A stretch of 64,000 nucleotides of DNA from Capillidium heterosporum (taxonomy: Eukaryota > Entomophthoromycota > Entomophthoromycetes > Entomophthorales > Capillidiaceae), in contig WBMQ01000009.1 of assembly GCA_016630905.1 (NCBI GenBank), positions 992,001 to 1,056,000 of the forward strand, read 5' to 3'. Below are positions 25,023 to 63,741 of the stretch, piece by piece. Each line of letters begins with the position of its first letter. Positions within the stretch are counted from its first letter, which is position 1. The notes under the pieces were generated by a model. That model was not told the origin of the DNA and searched no databases. It saw only the letters and a list, made by a program, of their open reading frames with translations. Position numbers and translations under genes: made by a program.

Positions 25023-25608
25023 ATGAATTCCAAATTGCTTACCTCCATCCTCATTGCCATCGTCGCCAGCCACCACATTGACTTGACCGGAAAAGTCGAG
25101 ACCAAGACTTTATCTCCCACTACTTACGTCAATTTAGGCCAATTTCAGCGCCATCAGTCTGAAAAGATAATTGAGGGACATCACCACGATCACCCCTACT
25201 ATCGTGACATGGCAGTTGATCCCATGTACTACACCATCCCCCGCCACCTATTTCAGCCGCCAGCTCACCAGAACTTTGCCCGTTATCTCTGATATCAACC
25301 TTGAACAGCATGTTAATCGTGGTTTCTTGTACCCTCATATTCAAGAGGACTTGGTCACCACTACCATACCTTCCTACCGTAAAGTTAAGGGTAAGCTTGA
25401 ATCTCCAGATGTCAACATTGCTATAGGCTCCCTTATCAACAAGAGCCAGGCTACTGCTGGTAAAAAGAGTTACCTTGATCGTCGTACTGATATTATTTAT
25501 GACCGCGGTAACCTCGATACCCTTGAAGCTGGTTCTCCTGATATCAATATCGCCGTTTCTCACCTTTCCAATCAGAATCAGGGACTTGTCTCCAAAAGTA
25601 GTAGATGA
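25023..25608 (+). CDS. His-rich secreted protein of unknown function, one-base frameshift
   Basis: The gene starts MNSKLLTSILIAIVASHH, a short signal peptide. A region with a histidine cluster follows (IIEGHHHDHPYYRD), then MYYTIP. After that the protein continues in a different frame: ATYFSRQLTRTLPVISDINL, then repeats of the type SPDVNIAIGSLINKSQ and SPDINIAVSHLSNQNQG, ending SSR and TGA. The broken copies at 600-1258 and 32428-32848 run through this point in one frame (YYIIPCRYFSRQ, YYTIPCHYFSHQ). This places an extra C in the run of five C at 25238-25242. There are no other stops in about 190 codons, so the frameshift is very recent or a sequencing error. Histidine clusters can bind metal, but nothing else supports a function. 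No homologue outside the window was recognised. Confidence 0.6.
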
Positions 25609-35942: not shown

Positions 35943-35982
35943 GTAAACAAACTTCAACCAAGCATTTAAAAATATAAGAAAG

Positions 35983-38082
35983 ATGTCTTTACTACATTGG
36001 TCTACTAGCTGGGTATCCGCCTTTTGGAGCAACAATAGTTCAGAGCCCGACGACCCAAACCAAATCCCAACCGCAAGACCCGGAAGGAAGCTTGAGCGCC
36101 CCGCCTCTATATTCCAAGATAAGCCTTTTGAGCCTATGGATTTGAACACGACCGACATCTCAGTCAACAAGCCCAGCTTCGAGTTCAAGGACCACCCTTT
36201 GAAGCCTACAAACCTCAACTTGACTACCAGCCGACCCTTGCAGACCAACCGATGGTGGCAGAATTTGGTACTCAATCAAGGATACGGTACCATCCCTCTC
36301 TATCCCTATTTAATCCAGTGTAAGGACAGCAGCATAGTTATCAGCTACCCTGAGAAGGTGGCTACTGCCGACTACGTGATAAGTCCGTTCGTAGCCAACT
36401 GGACCATCAACTTCAACTCTACAGGAGCCCGTAAACTAAGCTCAATCGACGACTTGGGTGTAAGTATGATGTTTGGCAGTAGCGTCAAAGCCTATTTTAT
36501 TCGAGGCTGTCCCTATTTCACTATGGAGGTCAACGCAACCAACTTAAGATTCGATACCATCCACGCCATCCTTTCAGTTGTCACCAGTAGCAAGCGCACC
36601 ACCGTCAACTTCAACAACGGCCAAACCTGGGCTATATACTTGACGTCTCCAATGGCATTTACCAACACTTTGAACAGCTTAACTTTGGTAGGTGCCTATA
36701 CTGGAACTGTGCGGTTAGCTTTAGTGCCTCAACCTATCGACCAGAACTTGGCGATCTTGGACCAGTTTTCATCAACCTATCCTACCGGTGGCGATGTCGT
36801 ATACGAATTCCCGTCCGACCGCCAAGCCTACCTCCATTTCAACTTCAAGAAAAAGGGTGGAAACCTACCCCTTTTAATGCTAGCTCTACCCCACCACCTG
36901 GATTGTATAGTCAACTTATCGAAAGCCAATTTGAATGGGTACAACTGCCTGAAAGGTCCGATGACGGCAACAGTAGGTGACCAGTGGACTTTGTTAGAAG
37001 ACCTCAACACTATCCAGTGGTTCTCTCCCAACAAGGTCAAGGCGAACTTTGTCGATTTGATCAAGCAAAATATTACAGCTGATGTCAACTTGACGACCCA
37101 AGCTGAGGACCCTTACTTCCTAGGTAAACACATGGCCAAGCTGGCAAGGTTGGCCTTAATCGCTGAGTCGGTAAACATGGCCCAGACCATCCCAAGTATC
37201 CTATCTAAAATCAAAGCAATAATCGAGCCTTGGCTTAAAGGCCAAAACTCGAACAAGTTAGTCTACGACCAGACTTGGGGTGGGTTGGTAACAGTCCAAG
37301 GCATCAATGACCAGAACGCCGATTTTGGTATGGGCTACTACAACGACCACCACTTCCACTACGGGTACTTCATCTACGCAGCTGCAGTCATAGGCAAGTA
37401 TGACTTGAACTGGCTACAGGCCTACCAGGAGCCGATACTTGTCATGGTACGCGACTGCATCAACCCTAACGGAAACGATCCCTACTTCCCCAAGTTCCGC
37501 ATGAAGGATTTCTACGACGGTCATTCCTGGGCATCTGGATTGTTCGAATTTGGCGATGGTAAGAATCAAGAGTCAACTTCGGAATCAGTCAATGGTTACT
37601 ACGCCGTCTACCTCTTAGGTTTAGCTCTTAAAGACTCTACCATCTCCAATTTGGGTAATCTGATGCTGACTACTGAATTAAGGTCTAGCAAAAAGTACTG
37701 GCATATGACCGATAGTTCGATCTACCCTAGTAGCTTCAGTAACAACAAGACGGTAGGTGTACTTTGGAATACCAAGGTGGATTATGCAACTTGGTTTGGG
37801 AAGAATGTAGAGTATATCCATGGTATACAGATGCTGCCTTTTACTCCAATCTCCCATTATCTTTTGGATAGGAGCTGGGTGCAGCAGCTGTATCCTATTT
37901 TAGCAACTGGCATTTCGAGACAAGATCCACCTATAGCTGATGGATGGCGTACTTTTATTTACATGGCGAAGGCGGTATTTGATTCGCAAGGAGCTTACCA
38001 GGATTTCCAAGCTAGTCCTAAAGGTATGGACGATGGTAATACTATGACTAATACTTTGTATTGGTTCGCTACTCAACCTTAG
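35983..38082 (+). CDS. GH81 endo-1,3-beta-glucanase, left copy
   Basis: Cleaves beta-1,3-glucan, as in the Eng1/Acf2 family that acts in cell separation, wall remodelling or glucan degradation. Intronless, 699 residues. The domain begins with RPLQTNRWWQNLV (about residue 84). Family hallmarks near the catalytic site are NADFGMGYYNDHHFHYGYFI (about 443-462), KDFYDGHSWASGLFEFGDG (about 506-524) and GKNQESTSESVNGYYAVYLL (about 525-544), which holds the catalytic-type acidic residues. It ends RTFIYMAKAVFDSQGAYQDF and ATQP, then TAG. No signal peptide is evident after the ATG (MSLLHWSTSWVSAF), so it may be cytosolic like Acf2 or leave the cell by another route. The identical second copy is at 49665-51764. 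Confidence 0.93.
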   Translation: MSLLHWSTSWVSAFWSNNSSEPDDPNQIPTARPGRKLERPASIFQDKPFEPMDLNTTDISVNKPSFEFKDHPLKPTNLNLTTSRPLQTNRWWQNLVLNQGYGTIPLYPYLIQCKDSSIVISYPEKVATADYVISPFVANWTINFNSTGARKLSSIDDLGVSMMFGSSVKAYFIRGCPYFTMEVNATNLRFDTIHAILSVVTSSKRTTVNFNNGQTWAIYLTSPMAFTNTLNSLTLVGAYTGTVRLALVPQPIDQNLAILDQFSSTYPTGGDVVYEFPSDRQAYLHFNFKKKGGNLPLLMLALPHHLDCIVNLSKANLNGYNCLKGPMTATVGDQWTLLEDLNTIQWFSPNKVKANFVDLIKQNITADVNLTTQAEDPYFLGKHMAKLARLALIAESVNMAQTIPSILSKIKAIIEPWLKGQNSNKLVYDQTWGGLVTVQGINDQNADFGMGYYNDHHFHYGYFIYAAAVIGKYDLNWLQAYQEPILVMVRDCINPNGNDPYFPKFRMKDFYDGHSWASGLFEFGDGKNQESTSESVNGYYAVYLLGLALKDSTISNLGNLMLTTELRSSKKYWHMTDSSIYPSSFSNNKTVGVLWNTKVDYATWFGKNVEYIHGIQMLPFTPISHYLLDRSWVQQLYPILATGISRQDPPIADGWRTFIYMAKAVFDSQGAYQDFQASPKGMDDGNTMTNTLYWFATQP

Positions 38083-39725
38083 TTTAGGATCCTGCATTTT
38101 AGGGGGATAGTTGGATGCTGTACAAGTTGTATAAGCTAAATGGATAAAGGAGTGTAATTAAACTGATGCTCAGGTTCTTAACTTGGTTATATATGGCTAT
38201 TATGTCTATTTAAATTTGGCATTGTACTCAAAGTAGTGATTTTCAGTCTTATAAGTGAAATCTAATCTTTCAATTCAATTTAGCGATAAATGGCAATAGT
38301 TTGAACATTGCTATGTATCTTTAAGCACGAAATTCAATTGTATGAACCTATCAACTTAGCTACCTATGCCTTAAAACATACCTCGTCTTTCCTTTTATTT
38401 GGAAGTTACAGGAGTTATGCCAAAGTAAAAATGAAGCTTCCTACCCAAAGTTTTAGGAATGCTTCAAGTTTTGAAAAGTCTTTTGAATTTTGGTATTACC
38501 TATATATATCACCTGATTACATATATAGGATGCTTTGCTTTTAGGTAGAGTGGGTTATTCATCTCCAAAACTGTAAGCTGCCCTAATCTACTCGGTTTAT
38601 AGAGTAGGATTAGCATCACGTTTTTACTAAGAGTTTTAGGTATAGTGGAATGATTGACATTCATCATTCTTTTAATTTTAAAAATAAAACCATTTACGAT
38701 ATGTAAATTTGGCTTTTCATCAACCTTATAGAATACATAGTTTCATGGAAACCGATTTATATTAGTAGAAATTTTGTAAATTATCTTATTAAATGATGCA
38801 AATGGCTTAAACATATTTGTTTCGTATTTACAGAAATGGAGGTCACCAGTTATATAGAATGGTGGTTTGCTATAGTATTGTATACCTATTTAACAGAATA
38901 CTAATACTAAAGTGATTGTGTGTAATAGAGGTTACTGTTTACTATAGGAGTTCAATAGCTCACCAAATTTTCTACCCTCTACATACGTTAAGCTTTTACA
39001 TGAAAGGTCAATAAGCCTATTGAAGTTGATCTTTGGATGCTTAGTTTTAGATTATCGCTGTATATACATCCAATAGTCCAAAGGCGATATCTTAAATAGT
39101 ATTAAGCTATTGGATACTACAATACAAAAGATATAGGCCCATATTTAGCGCGTCTCAATCACTGATGAAGTTTATCGAGGTAGAGCTTTAGTTGTTGATA
39201 ATATATTTGCTTTTGCCAAAAATAAACGAATACCAATAGCCAGAGGGTTTCGATTTAAAAGCGTCGATAACCCTACAAGCGCTTATATAGTTTACATGGG
39301 TAGCCTGTAAACTTATAAGGAAAACATCAAGCTACATGCCAAGTAAGGCAACATTAGTTTTGTATTATAAAGCCTCACCCAGTTCGAGAGTGGTCTTTTG
39401 CTTAATTATACTACCGGTGCCAGTTACCAATACTTTGTAAAAGTCCACCACAAAAGTTTAATATTGACCATATTTAGCCAGTATCAATGGGATGAACTCA
39501 ATAAGTTCCAAATAAATTGTACCTTAACTAGTTGTTTTGACTGCTATATAGTATATTTAATTTGGAATTATAAGTGCATTCTCAAAGGTGAGCACTAAAA
39601 TGTAGGCATTCGTCAATCTAAAGAAGCTACGGTCGTGCGGGTTTCCAAAGATATGCATACGCTAAAATGATATCAACACTTTATTGATAAAGAAATGTAA
39701 GACTATATATATTGATTTACTTGTG
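38083..39725. other. GH81-peptide intergenic region in the left arm
   Basis: Repeated in the right arm. Small open frames here (38308-38544, 39398-39598) also occur in the right arm but carry no signal or domain. The sequence from about 38.55 kb onward has a diverged tandem relative at about 40.6-41.7 kb. Confidence 0.5.
39620..39650 (+). promoter_or_regulatory. Conserved upstream element of peptide gene 1
   Basis: AAAGAAGCTACGGTCGTGCG followed by GGTTTCCAAAG, 76 bases before the TATA box. The peptide gene at 41895 carries a closely matching copy (41706-41736), although most sequence around both has drifted. A binding site for a common regulator is likely. Confidence 0.5.
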
Positions 39726-39732
39726 TATAAAT
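39726..39732 (+). promoter_or_regulatory. TATA box of peptide gene 1
   Basis: TATAAAT, 94 bases upstream of the ATG. Spacing is nearly the same in the other peptide genes (84-94 bases). Confidence 0.55.
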
Positions 39733-39819
39733 ACCGACCTAAAGGCTCGGGTTTCCAACATAGCAACAGATCAAAACGCAACACTCATAAAAAATCCAAT
39801 CCAACTAAAATAATATAAG

Positions 39820-40101
39820 ATGAACAGCATGCTAAAGTTGGCCATATTACTATCCAGTCTTATTTACGTACTATCCTTACCACCCCAATTTCCTGCTTTA
39901 AGCCTACCTGATACCTCCTACTTCAATGAGCTTTTCAAAAACATTGGGAAGCCCAGTACCCTCGACATTAAAGATTTGAATGGAGATCAACTTCAAGCAT
40001 TTGATACCAACCAAGATAAGGGCAAGGGTGACAAAAGTAACGATGATGAAGCGAATGGTGAAGGAACTCGGTTCTTTAGACCTTATCGCGGCATTCATTA
40101 A
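39820..40101 (+). CDS. Secreted peptide precursor 1 (FFRPYRGIH type)
   Basis: 93 residues, no intron, no cysteine. It starts with a signal peptide, MNSMLKLAILLSSLIYVLSL, then PP. A pro-region follows (SYFNELFKNIGKPSTLDIKD and so on), then a polar linker (DKGKGDKSNDDEANGEGTR). The protein ends with FFRPYRGIH directly before TAA. The last nine residues are the best conserved part among the four family members in the window, which suggests that this C-terminal peptide is the mature product. An Arg stands just before FF, as a possible processing site. Downstream of GH81 in the left arm; the repeat ends inside this gene at 40027. No known pheromone, toxin or effector family was recognised. Confidence 0.75.
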   Translation: MNSMLKLAILLSSLIYVLSLPPQFPALSLPDTSYFNELFKNIGKPSTLDIKDLNGDQLQAFDTNQDKGKGDKSNDDEANGEGTRFFRPYRGIH

Positions 40102-41705
40102 ATTTTTTTGATTTCAACAATCTACAAGAGTAGCTATAAATTTCTAATGATCAAAGCTGTTAATAAAGCTAATGGATCTCTCTTTTTAGGCCTTTTACAC
40201 TAACATCAGTTTTCTAAATACCATTATTATATAGTCGCTACTTTACTTCAAGCTAGAGCGTATTTATAATATTTGTATATAAACATGGAAGCATATGATT
40301 ATAGATGCGGCTAATCACCATCTCCCTTACTACAAAAAAAGCTTCTCCATCGTAGGCGGCGGTAAAATTGTGTCACAATCCTTGCCCTCATATGCAAATC
40401 AGCTTTAAAAAATCAATATTGAGATCCCTTCAACTTTGATGATCGGCAAAGGTATCGAACATTTAGCCATCTCTACTTCCAAATTGAACTTCCGTATTTC
40501 TTTCCCTTGCTATTCAAAAACTGCGGTATTTATGCCAAATATTGTCGAAACCGCCTACCCAAATTCCAAGGATTTCTCGACTCTTGGAGGATCATTCGAC
40601 TTCGTCTGCCTCCTACAAATATACGAAGATCCTCTAGTTCCATAGGTGTAGAATTCTTAGCTTTATACCGAATACACCATCCATTTTGAAAATTGCAAGG
40701 TATCCTAATCCATTCCGGTTTATAGATCAGACTATTATCAATTTTTTTAGTACAGGAGCTAGGTAGAATAGAACGGTTAAAGTTCATACCTTCTAATCCG
40801 ATACAAGATAGCTAAAGCATTTAGATATAGGATATAAATCTAACTTAATATCGATTTACTAAATACTTGGTTTGTAAAGAACGGTTCGGATGAAAGGAAT
40901 AGTTTGTTATAGAACCTTTGTGGTTGTTTAGTGTAGCTTAATGGTGTTTATAAATGCTAGATTGATAGCGTAATATCCCAAATAGTACCATAGACGAGAT
41001 AGCTCGCATTGAAATTATTTGATTAAAACCGAGTTGATAAATTAGACTTGCCAGTTTATTTGATCCATAGGCTTTTATTGGGTAAAAATACTGTGGTACT
41101 TGTTTCAAAATATATCTAGTACTCTAAGAGATATGCAGTTCAAATGCACTATATGAATTAGATAGCTCACTAACTTTTTTAATCTTTACATATATTAAAC
41201 TTCTACATGACAGTTCAATAAAACTATTAAATCTCACTTTTAAACACTTGATTTTTTGATTTGAAGTACTTTATATCAAATCAACCAAAAGTAACTTCAT
41301 ATATATAACCAAGCTTTTGAGCATTTTAACACCAAGCTTCTAGGCTCACATTTAGAACACACCGACAACTAATGAAGTTTACCGAGGTATAATTCCAGTT
41401 TGAAACCATATGTTGAATTCTATCCAGAAATATCTCAGCACCATTAACTAGAGGGTTTCAATTTACAGCTTCGGTAGCGCTACAAATGCTTAATTCAGTT
41501 AAGCTGGTAAATTGCAAGCCTATAAGAAAAGTATAGTGCGAGATGCCATGTAAAAGGGCAATGGTTAATGAGTTGGAAAGTCCTACTCAGCTTGAGAGTA
41601 GCTTTTTTGCTTGATTAGTTAAGGTACTTAAACCAATGTTTGGTAAAACAGTCACCGCAAATTTTATAATTCTACAGCCTATAGAATATAGATATTCGGT
41701 AACGT
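40102..41705. other. Spacer region, diverged tandem copy of the 38.5-39.6 kb sequence
   Basis: Blocks near 40690-40800, 41160-41230 and 41440-41640 match blocks near 38570-38670, 38950-39020 and 39230-39410 in the same order. An example is AGAGGGTTTC with its flanks, at about 41451 and 39240. No protein is readable here. The region links peptide genes 1 and 3 as products of an old tandem duplication. Confidence 0.5.
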
Positions 41706-41736
41706 AAAGAAGCTACCGATGTGCGGTTTTCCAAGA
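41706..41736 (+). promoter_or_regulatory. Conserved upstream element of peptide gene 3
   Basis: AAAGAAGCTACCGATGTGCG followed by GTTTTCCAAGA. It matches 39620-39650 with only a few differences and lies at a similar distance from the TATA box. Confidence 0.5.
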
Positions 41737-41810
41737 AACATTCTACAATTTTAAAAGCGATGCCCATACTCTATTAACAAAAACCAAATACTACATATAT
41801 ATATTTCAGG

Positions 41811-41817
41811 TATAAAT
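41811..41817 (+). promoter_or_regulatory. TATA box of peptide gene 3
   Basis: TATAAAT in the context GTATAAATACC, identical in its first ten bases to the box of peptide gene 1, 84 bases before the ATG. Confidence 0.55.
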
Positions 41818-41894
41818 ACCAATCCAAAGTCCCAGTTTATAAAGCAACAGCTTCTTCCAAACTCAATACCTCTAATTAATCTTAACCAACTCCA

Positions 41895-42164
41895 ATGAAT
41901 GCCCTGCTAAAGTTGACGCTACTATCTATCCTTACCTATGTACACGGCCTACCAACTAGAGAACCTTTGGCGCACCTACCCAACAAATCCAACCTCAACA
42001 ACCCCTACCTCGACACCTTGAAATCCAACTTTATGGATTTGAAGAGCCTGGGTGGCAACAAGCATCAAACTCCTAATAAGGGCAAGGATAGCAACAAGGG
42101 TAACGATGATAGAAAGAATGAAGAAAATATCCAATTCTTTTCACCTTACCGTGGCATATACTAA
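41895..42164 (+). CDS. Secreted peptide precursor 3 (FFSPYRGIY type)
   Basis: 89 residues, intronless, cysteine-free. The signal peptide MNALLKLTLLSILTYVHG is followed by LPT, as in precursor 1 (LSLPP). The pro-region contains NPYLDTLKSNFMDLKSL, related to the NLDTLTNNLKDL of precursor 4. A polar linker (NKGKDSNKGNDDRKNEENIQ) leads to the terminal FFSPYRGIY and TAA. Here the residue before FF is Gln, not Arg, so a simple tribasic or dibasic cleavage just before FF is not conserved. The N-terminal two thirds have drifted strongly from precursor 1, while the last nine residues differ at only two positions. This pattern points to selection on the C-terminal peptide. Confidence 0.75.
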   Translation: MNALLKLTLLSILTYVHGLPTREPLAHLPNKSNLNNPYLDTLKSNFMDLKSLGGNKHQTPNKGKDSNKGNDDRKNEENIQFFSPYRGIY

Positions 42165-42735
42165 TTTTTTGAAATTCCAACTACATGTAGTCGTGTATAT
42201 GTACTTGCTGGTGATGAAAAAATAATTAATAAAGCTAGTGTATCCGTTTTTTACTTTGTATACTATATTTCTATAAATAAGCTGCATGTGTAGGTAGAAA
42301 ATCTAGAGCGTATTTCCTTTACAATCCCACATTTTTTTATTTGATCAATAAAGTCCGCCCCTGTTAACCTACAAAATCCACCAAAGTAAAATAGCTTTTC
42401 CGAACGTTTATAAAGTCTTTCGGTATCTATGGGAAAGGCTATACCGGATGCGCCCTCATGTATACACTATCCTAGACATCAGTCGAGACATATAATATAT
42501 TATACCAGGGTGAAGTGAAGCATTTATTGAACAGTAATAATACTATACAAGTCATTCATAGATGACCAATTATTTATAGTTTGCAATTACCGCTCAAAAT
42601 ACTTTTGTCTACGTCTCCCATACTAAAATTGCGGGTTTGTAATGCATTGCATCTAAAGTATTGAAAGATTTGGGTTGGTATCCATAAATATGGCACCTAC
42701 CTTATCTTAAAAAACTATATATTCCAAAAATTTAG
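42165..42735. other. Intergenic stretch between peptide genes 3 and 4
   Basis: No gene is seen. A partial match to the upstream element core (TTGCGGGTTT, about 42629) occurs about 105 bases before the TATA box of peptide gene 4. Confidence 0.35.
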
Positions 42736-42742
42736 TATAAAT
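42736..42742 (+). promoter_or_regulatory. TATA box of peptide gene 4
   Basis: TATAAAT in the context GTATAAATTA, 94 bases before the ATG, the same distance as in peptide gene 1. Confidence 0.5.
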
Positions 42743-42829
42743 TAAATAGAGACCACAACCTTGACTTATAAAACTCTATTCCCAATCCAACCTCCATACT
42801 TCCACACCGCAAAACTTTTCAACTTTACG

Positions 42830-43117
42830 ATGCAAGTCTTCCAGCTAGCCACATTAACCACTTTAATCAACTTGGCTGTAGCCATCTTCCTACCCAACAA
42901 CTCCAACTTGAAGGGGTTGGTTAATGACGATAAACTACAGATGCTCAATCCTAACTTGGATACTTTAACCAACAACTTGAAGGATTTAGCTAACATCAAC
43001 CTCATCAAGGATTCCCTTTTCAACTCCAACAGTAATCCTGGAAAGGACAACGGCGGTAAGGATGGTAAAGGTAAGGGTGAAGAGCAGTTCTTCAACCCGT
43101 ACCGTGGTATCCATTAA
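42830..43117 (+). CDS. Secreted peptide precursor 4 (FFNPYRGIH type)
   Basis: 95 residues from the first ATG, intronless, cysteine-free. The signal peptide MQVFQLATLTTLINLAVAIF is followed by LPNN. The pro-region has two NL-type repeats (PNLDTLTNNLKDLANINLIK). The linker is Gly/Lys-rich (NPGKDNGGKDGKGKGEEQ). The end is FFNPYRGIH and TAA. The sequence is the most diverged of the four outside the signal peptide and the last nine residues. The frame is open for 23 codons upstream of the ATG, but no earlier ATG exists. Same strand and spacing pattern as genes 1 and 3. Confidence 0.72.
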   Translation: MQVFQLATLTTLINLAVAIFLPNNSNLKGLVNDDKLQMLNPNLDTLTNNLKDLANINLIKDSLFNSNSNPGKDNGGKDGKGKGEEQFFNPYRGIH

Positions 43118-44704
43118 ATGTTTTTAATATGTGTTAAAACCACTCTAATTCTAATAAATAACTAATAAAAGCTTTCCTATTCGTTTAAATTTACAATGGT
43201 TTATTTTATCCAACATATATGAACTTAGTAATTCGTAATTATATACTAGTTGATTTACAGGCCATTCTTTTTAGAAGCATTGGTAAATCAGTATCGATTA
43301 ATATACCTTTGGATTGACCTAATATATATAATAAAGAGATGAACGATGCTAAAATAAATGTCCAAACCTACTTGATCTATAAAATATATAATTTTTTTAC
43401 CAGCAAAATATTTTTGGTTTTTGATAGAGCCCATATTTATCTAATATAGTATGTATAAGCATATATTGAATTTCCAATCGAATAGCTATCGAGTCCAAAT
43501 AATATATTCTTTCGTATTCCTATCGCTCAAAGCCAACACACAACTTCATTAGATGAAAATTAAAAAGCTGATGAATATTTTCACATCAAGAGCCAGCTCA
43601 AGCTTTCACTCAAAAGTTCAATTCCAATCAGTTCCTCAGCAAAGGTACTCAAAGTAAGGAGTCAATAGACATTTCAAGTAATACCAAGGTGAATTTGTAT
43701 TTCATTTTTGAGGGCGTGTTGATACCTTTATAAAATCTAGAACTTTTGAGTTGAGCTTATAGGAACAATAGTCGCAGTCTCAGTTTTAAATCAACATCTG
43801 AACCCTTGAAGCTTGGATACCTAAATAATGTATTATCTTTAAATAGCGATAAATGTAATGTAGTAATATATGTACGGTATATCAGTAAAACTGAGTTTTT
43901 TTTGGAGCTAAAATCTTAGAATGAACAGCTTGCTATAAACTGCGAGTTAATATATACTGCATATACTGCTACTAAGCCAAAGGGATTCGATATCTATAAC
44001 TCAAAGCCTCTTGAACCTTTTCCCGACCTTAAAGCACTTGATTCGACTGACAATTATTGGAAACTTCCTAGCATCTAGCTTGAAGCAGGGTCTGATATTA
44101 AAAGACTAGAAGTTAACTTGTAGTGATCTTTCAAAGGATATAAACCATTAGCTATCTTTGGACAATACCATTAACATCATTGATCCACACAAGGTGAGTA
44201 GTACAGTGGATTTCTTTACCAACCATTTATAAAAGTCGCAATACCATCGCTTAATTTAAAGTGACTACATGTCTAATGTAATGAAGACTCGAGAAGTCTA
44301 ACTAGGTTTAGTAATGGTATTAAATAGTGATATATATTTCGGCTCTGGTTTATCAATATCAATTCATTATAATTATAAAAACAAGGACATTTACAATACA
44401 GGAAACGATTGGCATATGCCTTGTGTAGATACCAGAATCAAATAAAGGCTGTTAAGACGATAAAATCCTTAAGCTATAGTGTGATTGTGCGCAGTATTCA
44501 ACTTTGTCTAAGAAATATACTAGGTATAATGTTCCAAAAATAATCTACAGGTGATAGAATAGGCTAAATTCCTTTTTTGGTTTTAATTATGATGCATATC
44601 GATAGGGCCTATACAGAAAAGCAGCATAAATAGAGGTAGTAGACTCATTTTTCAAAATTCAAAGTACAAAAAGCCGCATACAGTTGAAAATAAAGGCTGA
44701 AGTG
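43118..44704. other. Spacer region with LRR-like coding remnants
   Basis: Near 43980-44130 one frame reads KGFDIYNSKPLEPFPDLKAL, then DSTDNYWKLPSI, a TAG, LEAGSDIKRLEVNL, a TAG and a TGA. It looks like a leucine-rich repeat relic similar in style to the F-box gene at 18 kb. A short start-like piece stands at 43554 (MKIKKLMNIFTSRASSSFHS). The two were not linked with confidence. The rest is AT-rich upstream sequence of the P450 gene. Confidence 0.3.
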
Positions 44705-46653
44705 ATGAAGGAACTACCACTATCGACAACCAGTATCGCTATTTTAATAGCCATAGTACTGATGCTGATTGCTGTAAAGAAGGTACCGGCTTGAGTTTAA
44801 AGAACGCTCCACTAACTCCTACGGTAGATAATCTACAACTTATACGAAAGTCCGTTGAAAGATGTACCCGGCTCTCTACTATCTCGAATACTCCCCTACG
44901 ACATCCACTTCTCTAAATTGGACGGCACGCACCCCTTTCTCATACATAAGTACCATCAAAGGTACGGACCGATAGTATATATAGGTAGCTCCAACCTAAA
45001 TGCATAGTTTTTAACAATTTTAGAGCCAAACTGCGTATCCTTCGCTACGGGAGAAGCGGCCAAAGAAATCTACGCGACCTACGCCTACACCAAATCTACT
45101 GAGTATGACGCTTTGGCGTTTTGGAAGGGCAACATATTTAGCATGACGTAGGTTTTTAGATGCATGTATTTTCTGACATTTTTACAGGGATGTGAATCAA
45201 CATCAAACAAGGGTAACTACTTAAATACTCTTAAATTTGTACTAAAATTCTATTAGAAAAGAACTATGGTGCCATCATTCAGCCCCAAGGCCATTGAAGG
45301 TATTGAAGAGACGATTGTCGAACATGGTATGGGAAAGCTCTGTCAGAAGTTGGATGAAAAATTAGAGAGAGGGGAATCAATCGATCTTATTAGATACTTA
45401 CATTCCATGGCCTACGTATCACTTTTATCATCGACAACAACTAACTATCGATACTTCTAGGATGTAATTGGTAAAGTAGCGTTCGGGACTTCATTTGGTA
45501 TGTTGGATAACATAGATATCCGGCATCCTATACTCAAGTGGGTTGATGACTTTTTGATTGGGGTCATGATGGTAAACTTAGCAGCTGTTGTACTTGGATA
45601 TTAACCTATCTCAATAGAGGATCCTATTCCCCTTCTTGAATAGATTTACCGATCCAGCTCGAAGAAATTTGAAAAAGGTAACCAATTTGACAAGCAATTT
45701 TTATTTTAATGTAGTGATGTAGTTTGCGATCGAAGCTATAAAGAATGCCCAAAAATCCGATGTCCATGACACTATATTGAGTTTACTTATGGATGCTATC
45801 GATCCCAAGACGGGCCAGAAGTTGACTCATGAAGAACTTGCTGAAGAATCTATCATTCAAATGTTATTTCACCGCTTTACCTTAATTTAACTAACTTTTA
45901 TTTTCAGTGTCGCTGGTACTGATACTACATCCAATACCTTAACATGGTAACCAATATTTTATAAGAAATATCCTTAAACGGTACGTTTTTAGGATTTTCA
46001 TCATGTTGATGAAGCATCCCAAAATTTACTTAAAATTGACAACTGAACTCAAAAGTGCATTCTCGACCAACAACATCACTTTCTCCAAATGCAAACAGCT
46101 ACCCTATCTCAACGCTGTTATCTACGAAACTATGCGACTAATGCCAGTTACTGGTGAGCATCTGGTTCGAGTAACTCCTAAAGGAGGCCGAACCATATGT
46201 GGCTATTTTATGCCAGAAGGGGTAAGTAGTTAAGAGTAATGTATCTAAAAATTGGTAAACTTTTAGACTATAGTAGGCGTAAGTATCTACTCTCTTCACA
46301 ACTCTGAAATCAACTTCAAAGATGCTGACAAGTTCTTACCAGAGCGGTGGTTGATTGAAGTGGATGGAAAATTAACTTTTTCAACTGAGGTTGCTAATGA
46401 TAACTTTTTACCTTTTTTAATGGGACCTAGAGCTTGTATGGGAAGGCAGTAAGTTTATATTAGTTATATTATTGCTAATACAATTTTATTGCGCTTTAGT
46501 TTGGCTTGGATGGAACTTTACCTGACGGTTGCTTTCCTAGTTAAGCAGTATAGCTTCCAACCGGTAGATGGAGATCTCAATGTAGGGGTGAAATCCTACG
46601 TTGTCATCAAACCTAAAGCTGAGAATTTGTTCGTCAATATTAGTAAGGCGTAG
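44705..46653 (+). CDS. Cytochrome P450 monooxygenase
   Basis: Membrane-anchored haem monooxygenase; substrate unknown. Twelve exons: join(44705..44782, 44828..44984, 45024..45147, 45188..45212, 45257..45415, 45461..45571, 45618..45677, 45723..45862, 45908..45946, 45993..46221, 46267..46448, 46500..46653), 485 residues, normal family length. The N-terminal anchor is TSIAILIAIVLMLIAVKK. The C-helix region reads DVNQHQTRKRTMVPSFSPKA, the I-helix oxygen motif AGTDTTSNTLTW, the ExxR motif ETMRL, and the PERF-type motif PERW. The haem loop FLPFLMGPRACMGRH holds the ligand Cys. Introns are 39-51 nt and exons are as short as 25 nt. All motifs are intact, so the enzyme should be active. It lies in the spacer of the inverted repeat beside the peptide genes. 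Stop is TAG. Confidence 0.93.
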
Positions 46654-47645
46654 TGTTTTCTCAATAAACAAGTTTAAATTATTAAATACCATTGAATGGC
46701 ATATAATTGTCAACTTAACCCTTCAGCTAAGGCGTATATCAAACATCAGATTATATTAGTTTTCATAGTTAACCTACATTTGTACCACTACCCGACAATG
46801 TGCTTCGGGCTAAGTATTTTTATCTTTCACCGATCATTCATACTTTAAATCACTATACATCCAGTTCCCATCACCTTAATTAGCCGCCAATACATTTAAT
46901 TCCATCTGGGATTAATTACCCTTTTTAGGCACGAATAATTGGATCCTAACTTCGATAGCGGATTATTATAACTAGAACATATGCCTATCTCCTTGTTGGA
47001 AAAGAATCCACTTACATGTCGCCAATTTATGACTTCCTCTTAAGCTATGATATATATATGTTGAAACTCTTGTACAAAAAGGTAAATTGGATTAGCTTAA
47101 TTAAACATTTAAAGATTCCTAGCCAGTAGTTTTGCAAGAATTGAGTGCTTTTATTAGTTGTATAGTAACTGCCGCGTCTATATCAGACAGCCCGCAACAT
47201 TATTAAACATTCCACATCCTCTGCCGAAGGACTCACCAAGTTCGGCCGAACCCACTCGACTAGAAGTCCAAGCCAGTGGTTAAACACTTGATGAGGTCGA
47301 CCAGTCAAAATTAGTTATGTAAACTATTTTAAATAGTACTATGTCGATTTTCTTATATATTAAGGTAGAAAACTGAGGTTTGAGTGAGCCTTTGGAATAT
47401 TTTAAAACTTGTAAGTAGATGCACTAAAAGTCGATTAATGAATAAGGTGAGTATTATCGATCTACTATATGATACTTAGGATTCGGACGTAATCTGTACT
47501 TGACTTCATACATACACATACACTCCATTATAAAAACTGACCTATAGAATAAAAAATTAAAAGGAATAATATATTGATTTTATTAATCGGTGCTCGATCA
47601 TTAGAAAGTTATATATGCGCTTATACTCAGCTGGAAGCAAAACTT
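46654..47645. other. Intergenic stretch between the P450 and peptide gene 2
   Basis: Convergent gene ends. A more GC-rich patch near 47170-47300 is unexplained. No gene was recognised. Confidence 0.4.
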
Positions 47646-47927
47646 TTAGTGAATTCCACGGTAAGGAGAAAAGAACCGAGCACCTCGGTTACCCCCTTTA
47701 TTCATGTCACCTTGACTATCCTTGCCCTTATCTTGGTTGGTATCAAATGCTTGAAGTTGATCTCCATTCAAATCTTTAATGTCGAGGGTACTGGGCTTCC
47801 CAATGTTTTTGAAAAGCTCATTGAAGTAGGAGGTATCAGGTAGGCTTAAAGCAGGAAATTGGGGTGGTAAGGATAGTACGTAAATAAGACTGGATAGTAA
47901 TATGGCCAACTTTAGCATGCTGTTCAT
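47646..47927 (-). CDS. Secreted peptide precursor 2 (FFSPYRGIH type)
   Basis: 93 residues, intronless, cysteine-free. The first 66 or so residues, through DKGK, are identical to precursor 1 because they lie in the repeated arm. After 47720 the sequence departs: the linker reads DSQGDMNKGGNRGAR and the end is FFSPYRGIH and TAA. The mature-type peptide therefore differs from precursor 1 (Ser for Arg at position 3), although signal peptide and pro-region are the same. As in precursor 1, Arg directly precedes FF. Confidence 0.75.
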   Translation of the reverse strand: MNSMLKLAILLSSLIYVLSLPPQFPALSLPDTSYFNELFKNIGKPSTLDIKDLNGDQLQAFDTNQDKGKDSQGDMNKGGNRGARFFSPYRGIH

Positions 47928-48014
47928 CTTATATTATTTTAGTTGGATTGGATTTTTTATGAGTGTTGCGTTTTGATCTGTTGCTATGTTGGAAACCCGA
48001 GCCTTTAGGTCGGT

Positions 48015-48021
48015 ATTTATA
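48015..48021 (-). promoter_or_regulatory. TATA box of peptide gene 2
   Basis: ATTTATA on the plus strand, the mirror image of the box of gene 1; 88 bases lie between it and the start codon. Confidence 0.55.
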
Positions 48022-48096
48022 CACAAGTAAATCAATATATATAGTCTTACATTTCTTTATCAATAAAGTGTTGATATCATTTTAGCGTATGCATAT

Positions 48097-48127
48097 CTTT
48101 GGAAACCCGCACGACCGTAGCTTCTTT
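48097..48127 (-). promoter_or_regulatory. Conserved upstream element of peptide gene 2
   Basis: Exact mirror image of 39620-39650 in the right arm. Confidence 0.5.
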
Positions 48128-49664
48128 AGATTGACGAATGCCTACATTTTAGTGCTCACCTTTGAGAATGCACTTATAATTCCAAATTAAATATACTATA
48201 TAGCAGTCAAAACAACTAGTTAAGGTACAATTTATTTGGAACTTATTGAGTTCATCCCATTGATACTGGCTAAATATGGTCAATATTAAACTTTTGTGGT
48301 GGACTTTTACAAAGTATTGGTAACTGGCACCGGTAGTATAATTAAGCAAAAGACCACTCTCGAACTGGGTGAGGCTTTATAATACAAAACTAATGTTGCC
48401 TTACTTGGCATGTAGCTTGATGTTTTCCTTATAAGTTTACAGGCTACCCATGTAAACTATATAAGCGCTTGTAGGGTTATCGACGCTTTTAAATCGAAAC
48501 CCTCTGGCTATTGGTATTCGTTTATTTTTGGCAAAAGCAAATATATTATCAACAACTAAAGCTCTACCTCGATAAACTTCATCAGTGATTGAGACGCGCT
48601 AAATATGGGCCTATATCTTTTGTATTGTAGTATCCAATAGCTTAATACTATTTAAGATATCGCCTTTGGACTATTGGATGTATATACAGCGATAATCTAA
48701 AACTAAGCATCCAAAGATCAACTTCAATAGGCTTATTGACCTTTCATGTAAAAGCTTAACGTATGTAGAGGGTAGAAAATTTGGTGAGCTATTGAACTCC
48801 TATAGTAAACAGTAACCTCTATTACACACAATCACTTTAGTATTAGTATTCTGTTAAATAGGTATACAATCCTATAGCAAACCACCATTCTATATAACTG
48901 GTGACCTCCATTTCTGTAAATACGAAACAAATATGTTTAAGCCATTTGCATCATTTAATAAGATAATTTACAAAATTTCTACTAATATAAATCGGTTTCC
49001 ATGAAACTATGTATTCTATAAGGTTGATGAAAAGCCAAATTTACATATCGTAAATGGTTTTATTTTTAAAATTAAAAGAATGATGAATGTCAATCATTCC
49101 ACTATACCTAAAACTCTTAGTAAAAACGTGATGCTAATCCTACTCTATAAACCGAGTAGATTAGGGCAGCTTACAGTTTTGGAGATGAATAACCCACTCT
49201 ACCTAAAAGCAAAGCATCCTATATATGTAATCAGGTGATATATATAGGTAATACCAAAATTCAAAAGACTTTTCAAAACTTGAAGCATTCCTAAAACTTT
49301 GGGTAGGAAGCTTCATTTTTACTTTGGCATAACTCCTGTAACTTCCAAATAAAAGGAAAGACGAGGTATGTTTTAAGGCATAGGTAGCTAAGTTGATAGG
49401 TTCATACAATTGAATTTCGTGCTTAAAGATACATAGCAATGTTCAAACTATTGCCATTTATCGCTAAATTGAATTGAAAGATTAGATTTCACTTATAAGA
49501 CTGAAAATCACTACTTTGAGTACAATGCCAAATTTAAATAGACATAATAGCCATATATAACCAAGTTAAGAACCTGAGCATCAGTTTAATTACACTCCTT
49601 TATCCATTTAGCTTATACAACTTGTACAGCATCCAACTATCCCCCTAAAATGCAGGATCCTAAA
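48128..49664. other. GH81-peptide intergenic region in the right arm
   Basis: Mirror image of the left-arm intergenic region, with at least one base difference (near 48873). No gene is seen. Confidence 0.5.
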
Positions 49665-51764
49665 CTAAGGTTGAGTAGCGAACCAATACAAAGTATTAGT
49701 CATAGTATTACCATCGTCCATACCTTTAGGACTAGCTTGGAAATCCTGGTAAGCTCCTTGCGAATCAAATACCGCCTTCGCCATGTAAATAAAAGTACGC
49801 CATCCATCAGCTATAGGTGGATCTTGTCTCGAAATGCCAGTTGCTAAAATAGGATACAGCTGCTGCACCCAGCTCCTATCCAAAAGATAATGGGAGATTG
49901 GAGTAAAAGGCAGCATCTGTATACCATGGATATACTCTACATTCTTCCCAAACCAAGTTGCATAATCCACCTTGGTATTCCAAAGTACACCTACCGTCTT
50001 GTTGTTACTGAAGCTACTAGGGTAGATCGAACTATCGGTCATATGCCAGTACTTTTTGCTAGACCTTAATTCAGTAGTCAGCATCAGATTACCCAAATTG
50101 GAGATGGTAGAGTCTTTAAGAGCTAAACCTAAGAGGTAGACGGCGTAGTAACCATTGACTGATTCCGAAGTTGACTCTTGATTCTTACCATCGCCAAATT
50201 CGAACAATCCAGATGCCCAGGAATGACCGTCGTAGAAATCCTTCATGCGGAACTTGGGGAAGTAGGGATCGTTTCCGTTAGGGTTGATGCAGTCGCGTAC
50301 CATGACAAGTATCGGCTCCTGGTAGGCCTGTAGCCAGTTCAAGTCATACTTGCCTATGACTGCAGCTGCGTAGATGAAGTACCCGTAGTGGAAGTGGTGG
50401 TCGTTGTAGTAGCCCATACCAAAATCGGCGTTCTGGTCATTGATGCCTTGGACTGTTACCAACCCACCCCAAGTCTGGTCGTAGACTAACTTGTTCGAGT
50501 TTTGGCCTTTAAGCCAAGGCTCGATTATTGCTTTGATTTTAGATAGGATACTTGGGATGGTCTGGGCCATGTTTACCGACTCAGCGATTAAGGCCAACCT
50601 TGCCAGCTTGGCCATGTGTTTACCTAGGAAGTAAGGGTCCTCAGCTTGGGTCGTCAAGTTGACATCAGCTGTAATATTTTGCTTGATCAAATCGACAAAG
50701 TTCGCCTTGACCTTGTTGGGAGAGAACCACTGGATAGTGTTGAGGTCTTCTAACAAAGTCCACTGGTCACCTACTGTTGCCGTCATCGGACCTTTCAGGC
50801 AGTTGTACCCATTCAAATTGGCTTTCGATAAGTTGACTATACAATCCAGGTGGTGGGGTAGAGCTAGCATTAAAAGGGGTAGGTTTCCACCCTTTTTCTT
50901 GAAGTTGAAATGGAGGTAGGCTTGGCGGTCGGACGGGAATTCGTATACGACATCGCCACCGGTAGGATAGGTTGATGAAAACTGGTCCAAGATCGCCAAG
51001 TTCTGGTCGATAGGTTGAGGCACTAAAGCTAACCGCACAGTTCCAGTATAGGCACCTACCAAAGTTAAGCTGTTCAAAGTGTTGGTAAATGCCATTGGAG
51101 ACGTCAAGTATATAGCCCAGGTTTGGCCGTTGTTGAAGTTGACGGTGGTGCGCTTGCTACTGGTGACAACTGAAAGGATGGCGTGGATGGTATCGAATCT
51201 TAAGTTGGTTGCGTTGACCTCCATAGTGAAATAGGGACAGCCTCGAATAAAATAGGCTTTGACGCTACTGCCAAACATCATACTTACACCCAAGTCGTCG
51301 ATTGAGCTTAGTTTACGGGCTCCTGTAGAGTTGAAGTTGATGGTCCAGTTGGCTACGAACGGACTTATCACGTAGTCGGCAGTAGCCACCTTCTCAGGGT
51401 AGCTGATAACTATGCTGCTGTCCTTACACTGGATTAAATAGGGATAGAGAGGGATGGTACCGTATCCTTGATTGAGTACCAAATTCTGCCACCATCGGTT
51501 GGTCTGCAAGGGTCGGCTGGTAGTCAAGTTGAGGTTTGTAGGCTTCAAAGGGTGGTCCTTGAACTCGAAGCTGGGCTTGTTGACTGAGATGTCGGTCGTG
51601 TTCAAATCCATAGGCTCAAAAGGCTTATCTTGGAATATAGAGGCGGGGCGCTCAAGCTTCCTTCCGGGTCTTGCGGTTGGGATTTGGTTTGGGTCGTCGG
51701 GCTCTGAACTATTGTTGCTCCAAAAGGCGGATACCCAGCTAGTAGACCAATGTAGCAAAGACAT
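49665..51764 (-). CDS. GH81 endo-1,3-beta-glucanase, right copy
   Basis: 699 residues with a protein sequence identical to the copy at 35983-38082, and all the same catalytic-region motifs. It is transcribed away from the right end of the repeat towards the spacer. The leader near the ATG shows small differences (for example AAACATT for AAGCATT). The arm ends at its TATA box (51805-51812), so its upstream region is unrelated to that of copy 1 and the two may be expressed differently. Confidence 0.93.
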   Translation of the reverse strand: MSLLHWSTSWVSAFWSNNSSEPDDPNQIPTARPGRKLERPASIFQDKPFEPMDLNTTDISVNKPSFEFKDHPLKPTNLNLTTSRPLQTNRWWQNLVLNQGYGTIPLYPYLIQCKDSSIVISYPEKVATADYVISPFVANWTINFNSTGARKLSSIDDLGVSMMFGSSVKAYFIRGCPYFTMEVNATNLRFDTIHAILSVVTSSKRTTVNFNNGQTWAIYLTSPMAFTNTLNSLTLVGAYTGTVRLALVPQPIDQNLAILDQFSSTYPTGGDVVYEFPSDRQAYLHFNFKKKGGNLPLLMLALPHHLDCIVNLSKANLNGYNCLKGPMTATVGDQWTLLEDLNTIQWFSPNKVKANFVDLIKQNITADVNLTTQAEDPYFLGKHMAKLARLALIAESVNMAQTIPSILSKIKAIIEPWLKGQNSNKLVYDQTWGGLVTVQGINDQNADFGMGYYNDHHFHYGYFIYAAAVIGKYDLNWLQAYQEPILVMVRDCINPNGNDPYFPKFRMKDFYDGHSWASGLFEFGDGKNQESTSESVNGYYAVYLLGLALKDSTISNLGNLMLTTELRSSKKYWHMTDSSIYPSSFSNNKTVGVLWNTKVDYATWFGKNVEYIHGIQMLPFTPISHYLLDRSWVQQLYPILATGISRQDPPIADGWRTFIYMAKAVFDSQGAYQDFQASPKGMDDGNTMTNTLYWFATQP

Positions 51765-51804
51765 CTTTCTTATATTTTTAAATGTTTGGTTGAAGTTTGT
51801 CTAC

Positions 51805-60764: not shown

Positions 60765-61853
60765 TCAGTAGGAAACACATCTAAGCAAGATTAAGAGTAT
60801 TGGTGATAAGGATTGTGACTCAAGGTGGCAGGTGGTATCGTTTTGACCAAGTACAACTGATCTGAACATGACGAAAAGTCGCTTTATGTACCTTCTAGAA
60901 GGACCATGGGACACCAGCGTAAAGAGGGGGTTTACGAGCCCGACCGTTGAAAACAGAATGTGCGAGGTCATAAACACTTCCTTAGGGATGGTATAGTTCC
61001 CACCTACGATCTCGAGACATACGGCAATCTCGGGCACGATGCAGATGATGTACATTATGATTACACCAATAAGTTTTAAGGTAGCAATCGTTCTTGCCTT
61101 GGAAGTGCTGGGGTCAGCATACGAGGCGTCACTAGGTTTGTTGGCCATAATGACACTCTGGCTGTCGTCGGCAGTAATTGAGCTCATGGGGTAGGGATTC
61201 TCGGGAATAGGTTTAGCGGTACGTCTGTAGACCATCATCATTGAGTAATAGCAGAATGCAATGACAGTCATCGAAATGGCAAATCTGGCTATCAACACGG
61301 TGAGCCACATGATGAAATAGGATCGGTTGGGTTCGTCGGGGAATCCAAAGGGAAGGCAGACTAGGCCGGCCTTAGACCAGATGAAAGGGGAGTCGTAGTA
61401 CATGTTACCGACTGTTATACCAACTGAAACGAGCTGGGAAACTATAACTAAGCTGACCCACTTCCAATATTCTACCCGTATATTGTGACAGATAGCCAAG
61501 TATCGCATCAATCCTAGGATGGCTACTATCTCTAGAGTCGATTGCGAGATACTGAAGGTAATTGTCGCATCTAAGCCACACCACCAGCTTGGAAAAACAC
61601 TCCAGTCGTGACCACTGGTCCATATTATGATGGTTCTAATGAAGCTAAGAAGGTAGAAGACAAAGTCCAAACCGGCCACCATCCCTATCAATCTCAAATC
61701 GGACCCTTCGAACTTGAGACCTATACCAGTTACCCCTATAGTCATCAGGTTGAGAACCATACCGACTATAACTTGGAAGAAGAAAAAGATTTCGGCTGGT
61801 AGGAGCGCATCCTTGAGGTTGAACACGTTTAAAAGTTCTTTTGGTGGGTACAT
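60765..61853 (-). CDS. Rhodopsin-like GPCR, tandem copy 1
   Basis: Seven-helix receptor, 362 residues, intronless. Helices lie at about residues 19-43, 52-78, 91-116, 131-151, 178-202, 259-282 and 295-316. The disulphide pair expected between helix 3 and the second outer loop is present (C92 in SWWCGLD, C166 in GLVCLPFG). Helix 3 ends with LMRYLAICH, a DRY-like motif. Helix 6 has a Pro (CIVPEIAV), and helix 7 ends VNPLFTLVSHGPSRRYIKRL, the NPxxY position. The third inner loop is polar with DDSQSVIM. It is highly similar to the copy at 62659-63741. The last about 20 residues (HLESQSLSPILLILLRCVSY) differ from copy 2 because of an extra base at 60830. Ligand is unknown; it belongs to the opsin/amine-receptor-like fungal GPCR class by layout only. 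Confidence 0.8.
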   Translation of the reverse strand: MYPPKELLNVFNLKDALLPAEIFFFFQVIVGMVLNLMTIGVTGIGLKFEGSDLRLIGMVAGLDFVFYLLSFIRTIIIWTSGHDWSVFPSWWCGLDATITFSISQSTLEIVAILGLMRYLAICHNIRVEYWKWVSLVIVSQLVSVGITVGNMYYDSPFIWSKAGLVCLPFGFPDEPNRSYFIMWLTVLIARFAISMTVIAFCYYSMMMVYRRTAKPIPENPYPMSSITADDSQSVIMANKPSDASYADPSTSKARTIATLKLIGVIIMYIICIVPEIAVCLEIVGGNYTIPKEVFMTSHILFSTVGLVNPLFTLVSHGPSRRYIKRLFVMFRSVVLGQNDTTCHLESQSLSPILLILLRCVSY

Positions 61854-62658: not shown

Positions 62659-63741
62659 CTAAGCGTATTGCTGGTAGGGATGGCTACTCAAGGTGGCGGT
62701 GGTATCGCTCTGACCAAGTACAGCCGACTTGAACGTGACGAAAAGTCGCATGAAGTACCTCTTGGAAGGACCGTGACTGATCAGCGTGAAAAGAGGATTT
62801 ACTATCCCAATGGTCGAAAACAGTATATGCGTTGTCATAAATACTTCCTTGGGGATATCGTAGTTGCCGAAGGCGATCTTCAGCGAGACAGTAATTTCGG
62901 GCACGATGCAGATGATGTAAATTATGACTACGCCGATGAGCTTCAAAGTGGCTATAGTCCGCAGCCTCGAGGTGCCTGGATCGGCGTACGAAGCGTTGCT
63001 AGGCTTGTTGGCCAACTTGTTATCCATTATGACGCTCTGGCTGTCGTCGGTGCTGAACGAGTTCATAGGGTACGGGTTCTCGTTATCGGGGATCGGTTTG
63101 GCGACACGTCTGTAGACCAGAGTCATGGAGATGTAACAGAATGCGATGACGATGATGGATATGACAAACCTACCTATCAACATACTGAGCCACAGGATGA
63201 AGTATGACCGATTCTCTTCACCAGGGAATCCAAATGGCAGGCACACTAACCCAGCCTTGGACCATATGAACGGATTGTCGTAGTACATGTTGCCAATCTT
63301 TATGCCGATCGAGATGAACTGGGAAACCCCTACTAAGCAGATCCATTTCCAGTACTCCACTCGCACGTTATGACATATAGCTAGGTATCGCATTAAACCT
63401 AAAATGGCTACTATCTCCAGGGTTGATTGGGAGATACTGAATATGATCGTCGAATCTATACCACACCACCAAGAGGGAAAGACACTCCAGTCGTGATTGC
63501 TGGCCCATATGATTATAATTCGAATGAAGCTGAGAAAGTAGAAGATGAAATCGAGGACGGCAACTAGGCATATCAGATATAGATCGGACCCTTCGAACCG
63601 GAGACCGAACCCGGTAACCCCAATAGTCATCAGGTTAAGAGCCATGCCGAATAAAACTTGGGCAAAAAAGACGATCTCGGCTGGTAAAAGGGCATCCTTG
63701 AGGTTGAATACGTTTAAAAGAACTTTGGGTGGGAGCATCAT
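62659..63741 (-). CDS. Rhodopsin-like GPCR, tandem copy 2
   Basis: 360 residues, intronless, same topology as copy 1: seven helices, WWCGID and GLVCLPFG cysteines, LMRYLAICH after helix 3, IVPEI in helix 6 and VNPLFTLISHGPSKRYFMRL at the end of helix 7. The third loop keeps DDSQSVIMDNK with a short insertion relative to copy 1. The tail is TTATLSSHPYQQYA followed by TAG and TAA. The start could be either of two adjacent ATG codons. Strong similarity over the whole length shows a recent tandem duplication. Confidence 0.82.
   Translation of the reverse strand: MMLPPKVLLNVFNLKDALLPAEIVFFAQVLFGMALNLMTIGVTGFGLRFEGSDLYLICLVAVLDFIFYFLSFIRIIIIWASNHDWSVFPSWWCGIDSTIIFSISQSTLEIVAILGLMRYLAICHNVRVEYWKWICLVGVSQFISIGIKIGNMYYDNPFIWSKAGLVCLPFGFPGEENRSYFILWLSMLIGRFVISIIVIAFCYISMTLVYRRVAKPIPDNENPYPMNSFSTDDSQSVIMDNKLANKPSNASYADPGTSRLRTIATLKLIGVVIIYIICIVPEITVSLKIAFGNYDIPKEVFMTTHILFSTIGIVNPLFTLISHGPSKRYFMRLFVTFKSAVLGQSDTTATLSSHPYQQYA

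Follow-up and report, generated by a model that had tools for sequence, protein, structure and literature searches.

The four precursor genes at the locus

The locus described here lies in a window of 64,000 nucleotides of Capillidium heterosporum DNA, the whole stretch that was analysed, and comprises four small genes, each of which is an uninterrupted open reading frame (ORF) of 89 to 95 codons. All four encode proteins of one layout: a signal-peptide-like N-terminus, a middle part lacking cysteine, a polar linker of K, G, D and N, and the nonapeptide FF[RSN]PYRGI[HY], hereafter the tail, which in every gene is followed immediately by a TAA codon. The genes, numbered in coordinate order, and their nonapeptides are as follows.

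39820..40101, plus strand: gene 1, a precursor of 93 amino acids with tail FFRPYRGIH (ORF and own-genome homology E-values)
40072..40098, plus strand: the conserved C-terminal nonapeptide of gene 1 (translation; selection test)
41895..42164, plus strand: gene 2, a precursor of 89 amino acids with tail FFSPYRGIY (ORF and homology)
42135..42161, plus strand: the nonapeptide of gene 2 (translation)
42830..43117, plus strand: gene 3, a precursor of 95 amino acids counted from the ATG, with tail FFNPYRGIH and the most diverged front (ORF, homology, codon counts)
43088..43114, plus strand: the nonapeptide of gene 3 (translation)
47646..47927, minus strand: gene 4, a precursor of 93 amino acids with tail FFSPYRGIH, carrying the gene-1 front with another linker and tail (ORF, duplication comparison)
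47649..47675, minus strand: the nonapeptide of gene 4 (translation)

The ORF of gene 3 as listed begins at an upstream TTG, and the ATG at 42830 is used here. A preliminary description had placed four small ORFs with these tails at these positions, and coordinates, translations and stop codons agree with it, as do the absence of cysteine (none in any of the four precursors) and the presence of R or Q ahead of FF (R, Q, Q and R in coordinate order). When gene 2 is used as a query against its own genome, it retrieves gene 1 at E 9.4e-13, gene 4 at E 9.9e-11 and gene 3 at E 2.4e-6, and the four genes are therefore homologues rather than look-alikes. In the genome of 29,545,739 bases, a DNA pattern for FFxPYRG matches four times (reversed-pattern control, one match) and a pattern for PYRGI[HY] followed by a stop likewise four times (control, none), all of them at this locus; genome searches with the single proteins of genes 1, 2 and 3 recovered the four genes alone, together with one weak match of gene 1 (E 0.08) that contains an internal stop.

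Inverted duplication and flanking signals

Genes 1 and 4 lie inside the arms of an inverted duplication, which differ by 2 mismatches in 4,065 bp and also carry a GH81 glucanase gene.

35963..40027, plus strand: left arm of the duplication, with the GH81 gene, the gene-1 promoter and gene-1 codons 1-69 (comparison with the right arm)
47720..51784, minus strand: right arm (comparison with the left arm)
35983..38082, plus strand: GH81 glucanase gene, duplicated together with the peptide gene (PF17652 at E 6.9e-110, PF03639 at E 7.8e-40)
49665..51764, minus strand: second GH81 copy (sequence comparison)

The duplication had escaped the preliminary description. Genes 1 and 4 have the same 220 bp of upstream sequence, and the similarity breaks off abruptly within the linker, at a stretch of GGGCAAGG which gene 2 contains as well; past this end, genes 1 and 4 show short similarity alone, at best 35 bp at 80% (E 2.8e-4). 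Gene 4 keeps its frame and tail intact across the recombination junction, as would be expected if the linker served as a spacer only. The simplest reading is that gene 4 would combine the front of gene 1 with a linker, a tail and a 3' flank that come from an older paralogue, and that recent duplication or gene conversion would have done the joining, in an order of events that we infer. Since the first 69 codons are common to genes 1 and 4, the locus holds three independent fronts and four independent tails. Recombination in the linker, as read from this junction, re-pairs fronts and tails and leaves frame and tail intact.

By eye, TATAAATA-like elements can be made out ahead of genes 1 and 2, at a distance of about 80-95 bp, and AATAAA occurs within about 70 bp after the stop in genes 1 to 3. 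Two longer blocks upstream of gene 1 recur upstream of gene 2.

39232..39408, plus strand: upstream block 1 of gene 1 (matches 41440-41617 ahead of gene 2 with 69% identity in 183 alignment columns, E 5.3e-10)
39596..39648, plus strand: upstream block 2 of gene 1 (matches 41682-41734 ahead of gene 2 with 77% identity in 53 columns, E 2.8e-7)

Both blocks are absent from the upstream region of gene 3, and three control promoters gave short matches only (E 0.26 or worse). As a DNA query against the genome, the gene-1 promoter found the promoters of genes 1 and 4 only and missed that of gene 2, so the reach of this search is limited.

Selection on the tail, and its proposed secretion and release

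The conservation of the precursors is concentrated at their C-terminus. Of 98 columns in the four-sequence alignment 18 are invariant, and seven of these fall within the last nine (hypergeometric 6.6e-5, in a test that simplifies by taking columns as exchangeable); with genes 1, 2 and 3 alone there are 20 invariant columns, again with seven in the tail (1.5e-4), and nine-column windows clear of the tail hold at most three in the four-sequence alignment. Nei-Gojobori counts over the nine tail codons give, across the six gene pairs, a pN of 0.05-0.16 against a pS of 0.43-0.96, and in the seven codons chosen for their invariant residue, where pN is 0 by choice, pS still reaches 0.38-1.12. The linker, on an alignment that is partly arbitrary, gives a pN of 0.33-0.57 and a pS of 0.29-0.70, and the middle part a pS of 0.83 with a pN of 0.46 for gene 1 versus gene 2 and a pS of 0.91 with a pN of 0.64 for gene 1 versus gene 3. 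All of these counts draw on few sites, on gene pairs that are not independent and on the paralogues of one genome only. Because pN in the tail is low relative to pS in all six pairs and pN in the linker is as high as just given, the tail is under strong purifying selection, and the view that it is the functional part of the precursor is well supported by these comparisons. Within the tail, position 3 is R, S or N and position 9 is H or Y.

The earlier proposals that selection acts on the C-terminal part and that position 3 is the variable residue are thus upheld. The earlier picture of pro-regions that have drifted around a fixed tail holds for the contrast between the tail and the rest and fails for genes 1 and 4 as separately drifted copies, given their near-identical duplication; nor is the drift of the middle part wholly free, for genes 2 and 3 have NPxLDTLxxNxxDL in common there.

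With these counts in hand, the suggestion that the four ORFs are coincidental or decaying and without function retains next to no probability. Homologues outside the genome were not found in a protein database of low reach, which is what chance ORFs would lead one to expect, but the changes in the core are mostly synonymous in all six pairs, the four frames are intact and genes 1 and 2 have conserved upstream blocks in common; we reject the suggestion on the selection test. The same data bear on a more serious alternative, unlikely in our judgement but deserving attention, namely that the product is an effector or antimicrobial peptide aimed at a host or competitor (insect, plant or microbe) whose position 3 varies with the target. 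That the four copies, all at a single locus, have three alternative residues at position 3, that a peptide gene was recently co-duplicated with a GH81 glucanase gene and that recombination re-pairs fronts and tails would all suit such a role. Arms-race effectors usually diversify in their active part; here, against the effector reading, seven of the nine positions are invariant and position 9 takes only H or Y, and no convincing match to a known peptide or protein was found, in a database of low reach.

As regards secretion, the window has 56 ORFs of 60-130 codons that begin with ATG, and when their N-termini are ranked by a hydropathy heuristic, all four genes come among the first 8. Of the signal peptide proposed in the preliminary description, the hydrophobic N-terminus stands; its designation as a signal peptide draws on this heuristic, by which three further ORFs in the window equal or exceed gene 1. 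A dibasic pair is found in one of the four proteins (gene 2), separated from FF by six residues, and there is none at the tail itself, in keeping with the earlier remark that no plain Kex2 site precedes FF. Since the genome contains two P_proprotein (kexin-type) domains, proprotein processing as such is likely in this organism. At the level of sequence, a monobasic-type cut, some other cut and no release at all would look alike, and a C-terminal motif can also stay conserved uncleaved, as a sorting or binding tail.

A rather improbable alternative, in our estimation, is that the tail is never cut off and serves as an anchor or docking motif, attaching for example to glucan or to a partner; the product would then be the whole protein, a small protein that is secreted or part of the wall. 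The lack of a recognised processing site ahead of the tail and the partial conservation of a second stretch, in the middle parts of genes 2 and 3, speak for such an anchor, whereas the strong divergence of the remainder and the low complexity of the linker leave little protein to be anchored; moreover, a docking tail might be expected on other proteins as well, and the exact motif patterns occur nowhere else in the genome.

Known peptide systems, neighbouring genes and interpretation

Searches of Pfam and NCBIfam with the peptide genes returned nothing above the cut-off. Two sub-threshold matches, that of gene 3 to DUF961 (E 0.23) and a lysozyme in a PDB profile search (E 0.089), were taken as chance. 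In a protein database that apparently hardly covers the lineage, none of the 161 candidates for the four-gene alignment reached E 1, and the last 40 residues of gene 4 yielded no candidate with three common five-residue words. As a coverage check, a neighbouring GPCR was run against the same database, where not one of 3,594 candidates reached E 0.001; because even this protein finds no relative, the lineage is apparently hardly covered, and the negative results for the peptide genes are therefore no proof of lineage restriction. Of five nonapeptide core strings, four were absent from open-access full text and one occurs in a single, unrelated paper that is by its title about transition-metal films. 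Within the reach of Pfam, NCBIfam, this low-reach protein database and open-access text, the family may thus be called undescribed, as had been claimed.

The closest analogue of the layout is found in plants. CLE precursors, according to PMC4526924, are cysteine-poor and consist of a signal peptide, a variable domain conserved between duplicate or orthologous genes only, and a conserved C-terminal peptide, directly before which K is the commonest residue (48.4%), followed by N, E, A and H. The four precursors likewise join a variable domain to one conserved C-terminal peptide and are free of cysteine, but they are fungal, and FFxPYRGI[HY] is not the CLE motif (compared by eye, with no Pfam family above the cut-off). 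By analogy, the family resembles C-terminally encoded peptides without being a CLE family. Among fungi, PMC6339444 defines its search for KEPs, which include the alpha-factor precursors, by a signal peptide together with internal repeats that have KEX2 sites between them, and it notes that some Zoopagomycota are rich in KEPs. The present genes resemble them as small, apparently secreted fungal precursors of a short peptide and differ in having one peptide copy per protein in all four cases and no dibasic site at the peptide; membership is ruled out by the missing repeats and the missing Kex2 site. The likeness to alpha-factor drawn in the preliminary description hence does not extend beyond the general layout, for which the CLE type is the nearer model. 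Genome searches with PF02116 (STE2-type receptor) and PF02076 (STE3-type receptor) gave no match, and none of the control genomes gave one either. The a-factor-type lipopeptide pheromones of Dikarya have a CaaX box at their end and no signal peptide; the present peptides share with them the position at the C-terminus of a small precursor, and the absence of cysteine from all four proteins rules this type out.

Dikaritin RiPPs such as ustiloxin and phomopsin derive from a secreted precursor with an aromatic core and have a P450 gene nearby. The precursors here are apparently secreted and have an aromatic core, and a multi-exon P450 gene lies between genes 3 and 4, at about 44.7-46.7 kb (PF00067 at E 4.6e-14 on one exon), so that a dikaritin-like RiPP whose F/F/Y-rich core is oxidised by this P450 can be envisaged. 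P450 genes are, however, common in fungi, each precursor holds a single core with no dibasic or Kex2 site beside it, and a genome search with PF11807 (UstYa), run without a positive control, gave no match; we regard this origin as very improbable.

The window, with a GC content of 36.6%, also holds ATG22 and IDO genes. Together with the GH81 and P450 genes and the number of class-A-like GPCRs in the genome, these features point to a fungus, perhaps one of Conidiobolus type. Towards its end lie two GPCR genes.

60765..61853, minus strand: gene for a rhodopsin-type GPCR at a distance of 13 kb from gene 4, a candidate receptor as a lead only (7tm_1 genome search, 38.8 bits, above the cut-off; unreported by hmmscan)
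62659..63741, minus strand: tandem GPCR paralogue, 78% identical (hmmscan and genome search)

With 7tm_1, hmmscan reported the second gene only and the genome search put both above the cut-off; against PDB sequences, the second gene gives weak rhodopsin matches to five entries (best E 3.8e-5). Two further relatives, 44% and 37% identical, lie about 59-67 kb further on, the 37% match crossing three stops, and the genome as a whole has 24 matches to 7tm_1, 20 of them above the cut-off. By chance, a cluster of the size of the peptide locus would fall within 13 kb of any of these 24 places at 2.1% of positions, a figure computed post hoc, so that the linkage of peptide genes and GPCRs is a lead only. 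The motif is absent from five short ORFs with hydrophobic N-termini in 30 kb around the further GPCRs, on the same contig beyond the window. For Conidiobolus coronatus, 125 putative GPCR genes are reported, of which 112 bear the annotation class-A rhodopsin-like, 7tm GPCR superfamily or 7tm_1, and for C. obscurus 28; the part of that report available to us names no peptide ligand (PMC12387763).

Taken together, we lean, by a modest degree, towards the four genes being secreted precursors of one C-terminal nonapeptide, or of a decapeptide beginning with R or Q, that acts outside the cell and is probably a signal read by the fungus itself. In such a scheme the N-terminus would route the precursor to the secretory pathway, a disposable carrier and spacer would be formed by the leader with the polar linker, and a protease without a dibasic requirement would cut just before or just after the R or Q ahead of FF, so that a short aromatic and basic peptide could work outside the cell, most likely as a signal to the producer, and perhaps be perceived through a rhodopsin-type GPCR. 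Secretion, cleavage, extracellular action and receptor are all steps that we infer; the likeliest further step would be release of the tail and its action as a signal, and a role of the linked GPCRs as its receptors would be a speculation open to testing. A purely disposable carrier does not predict the NPxLDTL that the middles of genes 2 and 3 have in common. A bolder version, to which we would assign only a small chance, has an early-diverging fungus use FFxPYRGI[HY] as a peptide hormone or mating pheromone that is set free in the absence of a dibasic site and read by the class A GPCRs 13-16 kb away.

What the sequences establish, as far as they reach, is a real precursor family, undescribed as far as searched, with selection focused on its C-terminal nonapeptide. 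A survey for repeats with intervening Kex2 sites, of the kind described in PMC6339444, would miss precursors laid out in this way. The nonapeptide is defined and comes in four natural variants, which makes cheap synthesis and direct testing possible. To our knowledge, pairs of a peptide and a class A GPCR are otherwise known mainly from animals, and the pairing suggested by this locus, if true, would be a fungal one.

The inverted duplication and the genes around it

35963-40027 and 47720-51784, inverted duplication, 4,065 bp per arm with 2 mismatches
about 44715-46660, plus strand, cytochrome P450 gene
27523-28779, minus strand, gene for an indoleamine 2,3-dioxygenase-like protein (PF01231, E 6.3e-88)

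The two arms of the inverted duplication, which are spaced 7.7 kb apart, each hold a whole GH81 glucanase gene together with most of a peptide gene, and their sequences suggest either a very recent duplication or else gene conversion that is still ongoing. The P450 gene lies between peptide genes 3 and 4, with its coding sequence spread over several reading frames, the breaks being presumably due to short introns.

Rhodopsin-type GPCR genes

60765-61853 and 62659-63741, minus strand, tandem pair of rhodopsin-type GPCR genes

The members of this pair share 78% identity, and two more relatives lie on the same contig, about 59-67 kb off; for the first member (60765-61853), no homologue was found in the protein database at E 0.001.

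Other short reading frames with hydrophobic or signal-peptide-like N-termini

L024:4960-5244 (contig coordinate about 1060960, beyond the window), plus strand, 94-codon ORF
25023-25292, plus strand, 89-codon ORF

The 94-codon ORF, located 5 kb past the GPCR pair, resembles gene 1 in that its N-terminus is hydrophobic and runs into SLP, but its C-terminus is unlike that of gene 1. The 89-codon ORF, with its strongly signal-peptide-like start and a later part rich in His and Tyr, may be a further gene for a secreted peptide, or else a first exon.
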